Source of the DNA: Tenacibaculum sp.
GTDB taxonomy: Bacteria > Bacteroidota > Bacteroidia > Flavobacteriales > Flavobacteriaceae
Length of the DNA: 64,000 nucleotides
NCBI GenBank assembly: GCA_018456245.1
Contig: JAGYHQ010000001.1
Coordinates: forward strand, 1-64,000
Direction of reading: 5' to 3'
This document shows positions 16,298-52,968 of the stretch, piece by piece (the first letter of the stretch is position 1; the number at the start of each line of letters is the position of its first letter). The position numbers and the translations under genes are program-made. Below the pieces are notes generated by a model. It worked only from the letters and a program-made list of their open reading frames with translations. It searched no databases and was not told the DNA's origin.

Positions 16298-16358
16298 ATT
16301 GCGTATTTTATGTTAATTAATTTGTTATAGACATAATAACCAACATAAAATACGCAAT
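16298..16358. repeat. 17-bp perfect inverted repeat downstream of ridA
   Basis: ATTGCGTATTTTATGTT (16298-16314) / AACATAAAATACGCAAT (16342-16358). Confidence 0.85.
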
Positions 16359-16459
16359 ACCATTTACTACAATAAACATCTGTTATTAAATATATTAAAA
16401 CTTATTAACATAAAATGCGCATTTATTTTTAATATACTTGTTATTGCGTATATTTGTGT

Positions 16460-16643
16460 GATGTAGTGAAATACTCCGCTACCGCTCCGTCTTTCACTAC
16501 ATCGGCTCACGGCTTCGCCGATGATATGCGAAATCCTTTCGCTTCGCTCAAGAACTTCACACATCTTCACCTTAATGCAATTTTGTTTTTTCCTAGATAC
16601 TCCGTATCTTTCCAAAAACAAAACTACATTAAGCCGTGAGCCG
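16460..16643 (+). repeat. Palindromic repeat copy 1 (184 bp)
   Basis: GATGTAGTGAAATACTCCGCTACC...ACATTAAGCCGTGAGCCG; same sequence at 17537-17720 and 20568-20748. Confidence 0.97.
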
Positions 16644-16700
16644 TTATGCGTCATAACACAGAACTTCTAAATAATTGAAAGGATTTAAAGAATAAATATT

Positions 16701-17375
16701 ATGTACATACCATATATACATAAAACATTTAATTGGTACGAATTATATAATGATGATGACCGATTGATTATTGGAAGTAATAATATACAAAAAAATTATG
16801 GGGAATATGGACAAAATATAGAGCATAAAGTGTTAGATATTTGTCGTTATTCATATAATTCAAAAGTGTTGTTAGATAATAATATTATTGAGTATTTAAT
16901 TCCGACAGATACAAAAGTTAAGATTATCAATGGAAAAAATATAAAACACTTACATACACATCACGACCCAAACGATTTAGATGATTTTTTAAGAACAAAC
17001 CCAAACTTAATTTCATTAAGTATTCATATAAAAAAAGGAAAAGAACAGATATTATCAATTCTTCCAGAAACATTGGAATATTTGCGAATTTTCAATCTAA
17101 AAACAGATGTGAGAATATTGCAGAAATATAAACAGATAACAAATCTTCAATTAGACAGGTGTGACATTGTTGATTTTGCAGAATTACAACTTATCCCAAA
17201 TTTACATTCATTGCAAATAAATCGTTGTAAAGAATTAAAAAATGAGGGAGTTTTATTAGAAATGAAAAATATAAAACGAGTTGAAATATCTAATAACAAA
17301 GAAGAAGGCGATATTTATAATGTTCTTGCAAAAATGAGAAAATGTGGTCAAATTCTAAATAATGATATACCGTAA
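16701..17375 (+). CDS. Leucine-rich-repeat-like orphan protein
   Basis: 224-aa ORF; repeating LxxLxIxxC/N pattern (ITNLQLDRCDIVDFAELQLIPNLHSLQINRCKEL...IKRVEISNN). Confidence 0.6.
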   Translation: MYIPYIHKTFNWYELYNDDDRLIIGSNNIQKNYGEYGQNIEHKVLDICRYSYNSKVLLDNNIIEYLIPTDTKVKIINGKNIKHLHTHHDPNDLDDFLRTNPNLISLSIHIKKGKEQILSILPETLEYLRIFNLKTDVRILQKYKQITNLQLDRCDIVDFAELQLIPNLHSLQINRCKELKNEGVLLEMKNIKRVEISNNKEEGDIYNVLAKMRKCGQILNNDIP

Positions 17376-17536
17376 TGAAATTAAAAGTAATATAAAATAA
17401 AAAACGAACGCATAACACAAGTTTTTACGCTATTGCGGGTCAGGTGCTTAAACCAAAATTTAGGTTGTTTTACAAAGTTTTGTGCATAACCGAAAAATGT
17501 CGTATATTTATCCGCAACAGCGTAAACACCCAACCC

Positions 17537-17720
17537 GATGTAGTGAAATACTCCGCTACCGCTCCGTCTTTCACTACATCGGCTCACGGCTTCGCCGATG
17601 ATATGCGAAATCCTTTCGCTTCGCTCAAGAACTTCACACATCTTCACCTTAATGCAATTTTGTTTTTTCCTAGATACTCCGTATCTTTCCAAAAACAAAA
17701 CTACATTAAGCCGTGAGCCG
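17537..17720 (+). repeat. Palindromic repeat copy 2 (184 bp)
   Basis: Identical by eye to copy 1. Confidence 0.97.
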
Positions 17721-17757
17721 ATGCTTTATTAATAAAAAAACTTATAAATCAAATACA

Positions 17758-20379
17758 ATGCCAATACTTAATGATATAATTGATTGGGTTGAATCCAAAC
17801 CAAATTTTTGGAAAGTAGCAATTGACCGATTGATTAGGAATAATGAACTTACTGATGCAGATATTGTAGAACTAAAAGAAATTTGTAAGGTAGATTATGG
17901 CTTATCGGAATTTAAGTTTGATGAAGTAGATTTTGACAATTTACGAGATTTTGTAAATAATTCAACTAGTAGTAATGATATTGTATTATCTAAAGTTTTC
18001 AATATTGATAATGTAAACGCACTTTCAAAGACTTGTGAATTAGAATTTGCACAAAAAGGACTTACTATAGTCTATGGTGATAATGGTTCTGGAAAGTCAA
18101 GTTATGTGAGTATTTTAAAACACACTTGCAATACAAGAGAACATAAACCCAAAATAAATGCTAATCTATATGATTCAACTTGCATTGGAAATGATAAAAA
18201 AGCAGATGTCGAATATACAATTGATGGAATAAATTTTAATACAGTAAACCTTACAAACGAAGAAATAAGTGACACTATTTTAAAAAGTGTAGATGTTTTT
18301 GATACGTTTAGTGCAAATCATTACATTGAAGGAGAAGATGAAATAGCTTTTATTCCACAAGGATTATCTATTGTGGAAAAATTGGCTATTGGTATAAAAA
18401 AAGTTGAAGTGGAATTAAATTCAGAATTGTCAAGCCTAATTTCAAAAAGATTTACATATTCCCTTTTAGATGTTCCAGAAGATTCAACTGCTAAAACCTT
18501 TCTTGACAATTTAAATTCAGAAACTACACTTGATAAATTAAGAGCCGAATCAATTTGGAATACCTCCAAAAGCAATAGACTTGATGAGCTAACTAAAAAA
18601 ATAGATAAATTAAAAGCAACAGACCCACAGAAAACTTTAAAAGATAACGAAGCTAAGATTAAGCGTTTTGAGATTTTATTAAGCAAATTTCAAAATTTAG
18701 AAGACAACTTAACAGGAGATAAATTAAAAGATTTACAGCAAATATTGAATAACTTTGTAATGACAAGGAAAGCTCTTAAAGAAGCTTCAGAAAATGCATT
18801 CTCTGAATTACCAATTGAAGGAGTTGGAAATAGTTCTTGGAAATTGCTTTGGGAAAGTGCTAGAAGGTTTTATAATGAAAGTACTGAAACAGAAACTTTT
18901 CCCAAAGTGGATGAAGGAAGTAATTGCCCTCTCTGTTTTCAAGATTTAGGAGAAGATGCTAAAAACAGATTTACATCTTTTGAAGATTTTGTAAAAAATG
19001 ATATTCAAAAAACTTATGATAAGGCTTCTGTAGAATTTAATTTAATATTCGAAAATTTAAACAGTCAAAATTTTTCTTTTGAAGAACAAAAACCAACAAT
19101 AATCGAGTTAGATGAACTGATTGAGGGGTTTTCACAAAATCAAATACAGTATTTGGAATTACTTTCTAAACAGAAGGATTATTTGATAGGGCTGTTTAAT
19201 TCCCCAAAAGAGGTTGATGCGATTCTCCCAATTAAAATTCAAAATTCTCCTAAAATACAAATTCAAAATTTCATTAAAACTTTAAAAGAAACAAATGAAA
19301 AATTAAAGGTTCAATCAATTGAAGAAGAGTTAAAGCCTCTAAGCAAGGAACTAAATCAATTGTATGGAGAGAAAAAGATTTCTGAAAATAAACAAAAATT
19401 AGAAGAAGAAATAAATAGACAAAAGAAAGTGAAATTATTTGAGCAATGTGTTAGGAAGTGTGGCACAAGAACAATCACTACACTTAGTAACGATCTAGCA
19501 AATAATTATATAAGTCAAAGTCTCAAACAAAGCTTTAAAGAAGAATTAACTAAATTGGGGTTTAGGAATATTAAAATAGAAGCTGAAACAAAGGGGCAAA
19601 GAGGTAAGCAATATCATTATTTGAGACTTAATGAGCAAAATGCAAGAGGAGCCTATTTAAAAGATATTTTAAGTGAAGGGGAGCATAGGTGTATTTCCTT
19701 TGCAACTTTTTTATCTGAATTATCCATTTCAGAACATAAAAGTGCAATAATTTTTGACGACCCAGTTTCATCACTCGACCATAAATGGAGAAATAAAATA
19801 GCCAAAAGGATTGCAGAAGAAGCTTTAGAGAGACAAGTTATAGTTTTTACCCACGACATTACTTTTCTGCTAATGATTCAAGAACATTCTAATAATTTAA
19901 ATTGCAATCTAGATATAAAAAGCCTCACAAGAAAGAAACAGGAAACAGGATTGATTGCAAGCAATCCACCTTGGGATGCTTTATCTGTTGGTAAACGTAT
20001 TGGTCTGTTAAAAAACGCATATCAAAAATTAGAGAAAATAGAAAGAACAGAGACAGAAGAAGTTTACAAGGAAAAGGTGAAAGTTTTGTATGGTAAACTA
20101 AGGGAAACTTGGGAACGTTTTGTTGAAGAGATCTTTTTAAATGGAGCAATTCAAAGGTTTGGTCGAGCCATACAAACTCAACGTTTATCAAAGGTTGTTG
20201 ACTTGACTGATAGTGATTATGATATTGTTGATACAAATATGAGTAAGTGTTCCACTTATTTTACGGGACACGATACAGCAGGAGCTTTAATAGAAGAAAT
20301 ACCAGACTCTGCTGAGTTTCTTGCTGACTTAACTGTATTAGATGATTATATTAAAACAATCAGAAAACGCAGAAAATAA
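17758..20379 (+). CDS. AAA family ATPase, RloC/AAA_13-like, with zinc-hook-like CxxC
   Basis: Walker A VYGDNGSGKSSYVSILK; CPLCFQDLG in predicted coiled coil; LSEGEHRCISFATFLSEL signature; AIIFDDPVSSLDH Walker B/D-loop; VIVFTHDI. ATG at 17758 preferred over the GTG at 17713, which lies inside the repeat. Confidence 0.8.
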   Translation: MPILNDIIDWVESKPNFWKVAIDRLIRNNELTDADIVELKEICKVDYGLSEFKFDEVDFDNLRDFVNNSTSSNDIVLSKVFNIDNVNALSKTCELEFAQKGLTIVYGDNGSGKSSYVSILKHTCNTREHKPKINANLYDSTCIGNDKKADVEYTIDGINFNTVNLTNEEISDTILKSVDVFDTFSANHYIEGEDEIAFIPQGLSIVEKLAIGIKKVEVELNSELSSLISKRFTYSLLDVPEDSTAKTFLDNLNSETTLDKLRAESIWNTSKSNRLDELTKKIDKLKATDPQKTLKDNEAKIKRFEILLSKFQNLEDNLTGDKLKDLQQILNNFVMTRKALKEASENAFSELPIEGVGNSSWKLLWESARRFYNESTETETFPKVDEGSNCPLCFQDLGEDAKNRFTSFEDFVKNDIQKTYDKASVEFNLIFENLNSQNFSFEEQKPTIIELDELIEGFSQNQIQYLELLSKQKDYLIGLFNSPKEVDAILPIKIQNSPKIQIQNFIKTLKETNEKLKVQSIEEELKPLSKELNQLYGEKKISENKQKLEEEINRQKKVKLFEQCVRKCGTRTITTLSNDLANNYISQSLKQSFKEELTKLGFRNIKIEAETKGQRGKQYHYLRLNEQNARGAYLKDILSEGEHRCISFATFLSELSISEHKSAIIFDDPVSSLDHKWRNKIAKRIAEEALERQVIVFTHDITFLLMIQEHSNNLNCNLDIKSLTRKKQETGLIASNPPWDALSVGKRIGLLKNAYQKLEKIERTETEEVYKEKVKVLYGKLRETWERFVEEIFLNGAIQRFGRAIQTQRLSKVVDLTDSDYDIVDTNMSKCSTYFTGHDTAGALIEEIPDSAEFLADLTVLDDYIKTIRKRRK

Positions 20380-20567
20380 CAAAGCATAACATTGTGTATA
20401 AGCAATAGCTATTCAGTTGTTTAACTCAAAGTTTGCGCATTTTAACCCGCCAAACCTTATTTCTAATTTTTTGCGTAAATTTGAAAAATTGAAATAAGGT
20501 TTGGCTAAGTGCAGTGCTGAAATTAAAGTTTTCGTTTTTTAATTCGCTACTGCTCATACACTAAACC

Positions 20568-20748
20568 GTAGTGAAATACTCCGCTACCGCTCCGTCTTTC
20601 ACTACATCGGCTCACGGCTTCGCCGATGATATGCGAAATCCTTTCGCTTCGCTCAAGAACTTCACACATCTTCACCTTAATGCAATTTTGTTTTTTCCTA
20701 GATACTCCGTATCTTTCCAAAAACAAAACTACATTAAGCCGTGAGCCG
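20568..20748 (+). repeat. Palindromic repeat copy 3 (181 bp, lacks the 5' GAT of copies 1-2)
   Basis: GTAGTGAAATACTCCG...AAGCCGTGAGCCG; ends directly at the gapA stop codon. Confidence 0.97.
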
Positions 20749-22730
<1,982 letters not shown>

Positions 22731-52029: not shown

Positions 52030-52968
52030 ATGATTAAAATGGAAAACGGAATTTACGCAAAATTCACTACTCAAAGAGGTAGTATATTAGTAAAATTAGA
52101 ACACGAAAAAACACCAGGTACAGTAGGTAACTTTGTTGCTTTAGCTGAAGGTGATATGTTTAACAAAGCTAAACCACAAGGAAAACCTTTTTATAACGGA
52201 TTAAGATTTCATAGAGTAATTGCTGATTTTATGATACAAGGAGGGTGCCCTGAAGGTACAGGTATGGGTAACCCTGGATATGAGTTTGATGATGAAATTC
52301 ATCCTGATTTAAAACATGATGCACCAGGTAAATTATCAATGGCAAATTCAGGACCAAATACAAATGGTTCTCAATTTTTTATTACACACGTTGAAACTCC
52401 TTGGTTAGACGGTAAACACACTGTTTTCGGTAATGTTATTGAAGGGCAAGAAGTTGTTGATACTGTTCAACAAGATGATGAAATGAGAGTTGAAATTTTA
52501 AGAGTTGGTGAAGAGGCTGAAAAATGGAATGCAATTGAAGCATTTAGAGTTTTTGACGGAGAAAGAGAAAAACGCAAAGAGGAAGAAAAACTTAAACAAC
52601 AAAAATTATTAGACGAAGTTGCTGCAGGATATGATGAAACTGAATCTGGTTTACGTTATAAAGTTCTACAAAAAGGAGAAGGTAAAAAAGTAAAGAAAGG
52701 CGATAATATTTCTGTTCATTATAAAGGGCAGTTATTAGACGGTACTGTATTTGATTCTTCATACAAAAGAAAACAACCTATTGACCTTACTATTGGTGTT
52801 GGGCAAGTAATTAAAGGTTGGGACGAAGGTATTACATTATTAAACCAAGGAGATAAAGCTCGTTTAGTAATTCCTTCTGATTTAGCCTACGGAAAAGCAG
52901 GTGCTGGAGGAGTTATTCCACCTAATGCAACCTTAATTTTTGATATTGAAGTTATGGACATTAAATAA
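52030..52968 (+). CDS. Cyclophilin/FKBP two-domain peptidylprolyl isomerase
   Basis: Cyclophilin: [77 protein letters not shown]; start may be ATG 52039. Confidence 0.94.

Follow-up and report, generated by a model that had tools for sequence, protein, structure and literature searches.

Gene-less (ORF-less) integron cassettes are already known and are poorly understood. Those of Vibrio superintegrons and of Treponema lie between gene cassettes, are bounded by crossover points, carry no gene and end in an attC-like hairpin (PMC11014356, PMC6557892). Two other described systems are close: CALINs, which are attC clusters without an integrase (PMC8618304), and IS110/IS1111 elements, which target attC sites (PMC11187229). 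Within the Bacteroidetes/Chlorobi group, integrase genes are on record (PMC2426708), and a CALIN has been recorded in a Polaribacter phage (PMC9892861).

We analyzed a stretch of 64,000 nucleotides from Tenacibaculum sp. (the window), in which a 184-bp repeat shares all of these features with the gene-less cassettes of Vibrio and Treponema. It differs from them in that it is only ~165-187 bp long and nearly all hairpin, is present in many near-identical copies per genome, has a GAT instead of a GTT left end, and has a predicted circle without an unpaired central spacer. As in a CALIN, the window carries attC-type gene cassettes and no integrase was found in the genome; unlike a CALIN, its array opens with an attI-like core and its gene cassettes alternate with the repeat. 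Like IS110/IS1111 elements, the repeat appears to be mobile DNA that inserts near one attC end, but it encodes no protein and is placed exactly at the crossover, while in the congener G205 the IS110 copies lie several bases before that point. In the open-access literature we found no description of a repeated family of hairpin-only cassettes. We propose that the repeat probably behaves as a minimal integron cassette would, one that contains no gene and that an integron integrase moves.

A cassette array between ridA and gapA

In many congeners, ridA and gapA are neighbours inside lptD-ridA-gapA-pfkA with a spacer of ~76-156 bp, while in other congeners mgsA or another gene sits between them. 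Because the two genes are adjacent in many congeners, the array that separates them in the window is an insertion. An earlier reading of the sequence alone had noted that the repeats separate ridA from gapA, which held, and its proposed comparison with related genomes did uncover empty sites. In that reading, relatives with the ridA-gapA block intact would have spoken against acquisition; that block is instead the empty site that marks the insertion. By eye, a methylglyoxal-synthase-like gene lies between ridA and gapA in L035, L036, L038, L039, L048 and L059 and is absent at the window spot, and an isochorismatase-like gene takes this place in the congener L037.

The order in the window is attI-like core, repeat, gene cassette 1, attC, repeat, gene cassette 2, attC, repeat, gapA. 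The repeat copies, all on the plus strand, lie at 16460-16643 (184 bp, with a proposed mobile unit of 16461-16643), 17537-17720 (184 bp) and 20568-20748 (181 bp, abutting the gapA stop codon at 20749-20751). Copies 1 and 2 are 100% identical over 184 bp, and copy 3 lacks the first three bases and is identical to them over its 181 bp. The sequence-only reading had described three such repeats in the orientation of the genes, the third without its first bases, and was correct on each point. The search of the genome that it had suggested revealed three further copies in the 1.59-Mb source genome (G000), at C15 (96% identity), C20 (91%) and C38 (89%). Its statement that the DNA around the copies is unrelated stood inside the window and failed beyond it: the DNA left of copy 2 is 84% homologous to that left of the C20 copy and to a repeat-free site, C17, and a shorter stretch of it is matched at C48 and C54. 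Against Rfam, the repeat reached no family threshold and gave only microRNA matches far below threshold. The search for a plasmid or phage source returned no match, and the repeat was absent from the viral contigs searched. Scanning the genome collection with a DNA pattern produced seven matches in unrelated phyla, which we put down to chance.

The attI-like core CGTATATTTGTGTG occupies 16447-16460 (plus strand), with the crossover after G16460. The sequence directly left of both copy 1 and the C15 copy is CGTATATTTRYGTG, the same 14-base core that stands next to the first cassette of an integron in G205. Among 162 loci examined it was found only at copy 1, C15 and the G205 attI, and nowhere else in the window, where its chance expectation is 0.00. 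A related integron in G027, with an integrase 68% identical to that of G205, reads TATATTTGGGTG|TTGGC at this position; a relaxed 12-base attI pattern is expected 0.19 times per window, and the G027 match therefore counts by its position, not its rarity. The attI-like half-sites at ridA-gapA and C15 may be left by a lost integrase, or may be secondary sites that resemble attI.

The unit after each repeat begins with TT, or with ATGC in the case of copy 2. The opening bases of the unit return as the reverse complement just past the gene, followed by C. This match across the gene is the end pattern of an integron cassette. Cassette 1 starts with TTATGCGT (16644-16651, plus strand), whose reverse complement ACGCATAA recurs after the gene, giving 8-bp matching ends (TTATGCGT..ACGCATAAC). 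Its gene (16701-17375, plus strand) encodes a protein of 224 aa with no Pfam match and is followed by an attC-type palindrome at 17408-17537 (plus strand; R'' GCATAAC at 17410, arms GTTTTTACGCTATTGCGG / CCGCAACAGCGTAAACAC). Sites resembling this palindrome without a repeat were found at C17 and, in part, at C48 and C54. Cassette 2 starts with ATGCTTT (17721-17727, plus strand), in which the TT of TTATGCTTT is missing, and pairs over 7 bp with AAAGCATAAC after the gene. This gene (17761-20379, plus strand) encodes an 872-aa AAA ATPase that matches the PADLOC phage-defence candidate PDC-S06 at 1e-301, and so one of the two supposed orphan genes is no orphan. It is followed by an attC-type palindrome at 20381-20567 (plus strand; R'' GCATAAC, arms TGTATAAGCAATAGC / GCTACTGCTCATACA). 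The attC sites of the window were called by eye and fold; the two palindromes follow the genes in one orientation, and their L arms pair over ~15 bp. Elsewhere in the genome, matching ends of 9 bp were found in the C20 cassette (TTGGCAACA..TGTTGCCAAC) and the C38 cassette (TTGTAGCCA..TGGCTACAAC), and the C15 cassette shows weak end pairing on the left side and terminates in the palindrome GTTAAC...CGTTAAC.

The C38 cassette (L006:392-1474) directly follows a repeat, has matching ends of 9-10 bp and contains two genes, by eye a Crp-like regulator and a small membrane protein. Kinship of the cassette 1 gene with other LRR-like cassette proteins was considered and dropped, as the comparison was not significant. 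The defence gene is not an obligate cassette: a 77% homologue (G029 L030) is without visible attC flanks, by eye.

The window is a small integron-like cassette array of the CALIN type between two metabolic genes. It has an attI-like core and attC sites and no intI was found in it, so it lacks one of the three parts (intI, attI and an attC array) of a complete integron. The integrase search of G000 returned only Xer-like or long recombinases below the cut-off, and G000 contained no match to the G205 integrase at 1e-40. The genome is 96.5% complete, and absence of an integrase is therefore likely, not certain. The array shows how attI-like sites within housekeeping loci can take up cassettes, in this case with a phage-defence candidate, in a genome where no integrase is detected.

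Homologues in a congener and in a second genus

A genus-wide search identified a repeat homologue with 69% identity in G205, whose integron contains all three parts: an IntI-like recombinase, attI and ~20 attC sites, with the array running away from the recombinase. The recombinase (355 aa, L107:1216-2283, minus strand) scored 195.7 bits in two pieces against integrase_gron (cut-off 265) and 210.9 bits against the XerA-like/integron integrase model (cut-off 220). Its alignment to PDB 2a3v (IntI4) was likewise in two pieces, separated by ~40 chain residues that have no match; a middle stretch is absent from the match to integron integrases. Of 168 genomes of the genus, 115 had homologues at E<1e-40, and most of these homologues had no recognisable array next to them. 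In the 20-kb flanks of these homologues, the cassette-end detector picked up no comparable array in most cases, and the recombinase alone therefore does not imply an integron. The find suggests that the genus has integrons whose integrase is atypical.

In G205, the detector reported 20 cassettes whose ends match exactly over 9 bp; as these were picked by exact match, the fair comparison is with the 10 of 380 mismatched pairings that also match. At five G205 attCs, an identical repeat homologue lies exactly at the crossover (CACG|ATGGGATG ... CGGCG|TT), and a sixth site carries a shortened form.

Using the covariance model R1, we found G242, from a second genus, among 400 family genomes, a draw that did not include G205; the genus was sampled through G242 alone. 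G242 carries six full copies and an additional degraded copy. Five of the six full copies follow attC-like palindromes and one (L172) lies elsewhere. At the attC-like ends the boundaries read ...ACG|ATGCGATG ... GGGACG|TT, with GGGATG|TT in one case.

Boundaries and fold of the repeat

We found TT directly right of the repeat in 17 of 18 copies, as read by eye from the copy flanks (5/6 in G000, 6/6 in G205 and 6/6 in G242). The left boundary is G|AT in all three genomes, so the GTT crossover triplet is not found at both ends. Cleavage of GAT between G and A has been reported for integron secondary sites (PMC10127599). All attC-adjacent copies have the same orientation. The repeat is thus bounded by integron crossover points in a fixed orientation. 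This agrees with one proposal of the sequence-only reading, a modular acquisition element forming part of a cassette recombination site: the repeats occupy crossover points that follow an attC-type or attI-like site, and the integron-cassette ends of the genes between them bear out the cassette reading further. The attI and attC sites themselves had gone unrecognised in the sequence-only reading.

The other proposal, a MITE-like element, fared less well. An element moved by an unknown transposase with a preference for attC ends and promoter-like DNA would be short, palindromic, non-coding and multi-copy, with near-identical copies within a genome, as the repeat is, and could account for the G242 copy that lies away from any recognised attC. 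We consider it unlikely, since the ends GATG... and ...GCCG are not mutual inverted repeats, we saw no sign of target duplication, and the copies at attC sites keep a single orientation relative to attC and sit at the integron crossover, whereas a MITE is expected to have terminal inverted repeats and target-site duplications and to insert in either orientation.

The positions of the copies also bear on a further reading, in which some attC sites have the repeat as a fixed 3' extension that is inherited with the upstream cassette. An attC-type palindrome does precede the repeat at five of the six sites in G205, at three in G000 and at five in G242. However, it also occurs without an upstream attC (copy 1, C15, C38 and G242 L172), and in G205 the arms of the attCs beside identical copies differ, being ~75-95% alike, which makes such an extension improbable.

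The repeat folds far better than shuffled sequences (z = -8.3). In the bottom-strand prediction, 50 pairs are shared across G000, G205 and G242, 11 of them with compensatory changes, and the two strands have consensus energies of -58.7 kcal/mol (bottom) and -26.7 (top). The cells of the bottom strand contain 59 G.T and 5 A.C, a count from a 50-pair set that was derived from the bottom strand and is biased towards it; at the pairs shared with the top-strand prediction, the strand difference was not significant (6 vs 4 sites). For single sequences, bottom-minus-top energies lie ~2.8 to 5.8 SD beyond dinucleotide shuffles in every copy so compared with the exception of G242e; the G205 copy, for which the energies alone were used, has -55.2 for the bottom and -46.8 for the top strand. 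Preferential bottom-strand folding, as expected of a gene-less cassette, was therefore seen in all copies compared but G242e. Compensatory changes preserve the fold, and folding is biased to the bottom strand, like that of attC sites. The bottom strand is the one used by integron integrases.

A TAnnTTTG-like motif, which we take to be a Bacteroidota promoter-like motif, lies upstream of copy 1 and C15. It is nevertheless very improbable that the repeat is retained for expression as a promoter-linked leader RNA, a terminator or an insulator between cassettes, even though all five G000 gene cassettes traced in detail lie directly downstream of a copy and gene-less Vibrio cassettes can contain promoters (PMC11014356), since the fold favours the bottom and not the transcribed strand, no Rfam family was matched and the repeat is absent from most G205 cassettes; a role in expression would be compatible with the cassette mechanism.

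Proposed movement of the repeat

At its left end the repeat reads G|ATGTAGTGAAA, and this end pairs with TTTCACTACAT|C ~20 nt further on, which would be the repeat's own R''-like arm. The ends of gene cassettes pair in this way across the gene, and the repeat thus resembles a cassette whose gene has shrunk to a short loop. In the predicted circular form, the left end and the attC-like hairpin join into one long stem. Described attC substrates have an unpaired central spacer (PMC2727003). Between the R and L boxes of the repeat, the predicted circular form instead pairs throughout save for the junction base. The predicted folds have some unpaired bases on the R''-L'' arm. The missing spacer is a true departure from attC substrates, and we therefore say only that the repeat works like a gene-less cassette.

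Under this gene-less cassette model, the remainder of the repeat would be a branched hairpin in the role of attC, with the crossover ...GCCG|TT at its end. The folded bottom strand, possibly of a circular intermediate, would be the substrate of an integron integrase, so that the repeat enters in one orientation, either at attI-like sites or just after the attC of a gene cassette. Every inserted copy would then supply a new G|TT for the next cassette, and the window could have arisen in this way as attI-like | repeat | cassette 1 | repeat | cassette 2 (PDC-S06) | repeat | gapA. The G242 L172 copy and the copies at attI-like sites count against the model in that they lie outside attC arrays.

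It is about as likely as not that the repeat represents a selfish 'attC-only' cassette family, in which the mobile unit would be the recombination hairpin alone. Such a family would borrow an integron integrase, use a GAT crossover, spread within and between genera of the same bacterial family, and create new landing sites for gene cassettes, defence genes included, away from the integron. Since the repeat is short, structured and multi-copy, is found in two genera, and shows fold-keeping changes and a bottom-strand bias, the question of a purely selfish hairpin is directly testable.

The shortened repeat of G205 (array coordinate 52739-52910) consists of the first stem and a 12-base mini-hairpin and likewise ends at G|TT; it may have arisen by deletion or may represent a simpler, ancestral state. 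G205 also carries three identical genes for a 330-aa IS110-type transposase (L074:15693-16685, L075:11968-12960 and 16316-17308, minus strand), beside which the attC sites are cut at CATACAC|GTATTCC. In G000, an IS110-type gene adjoins an attC-like palindrome at C20 (L005:202-1158). With the family assigned by eye, these IS110-type genes at attCs look like the attC targeting known for IS1111-type elements.
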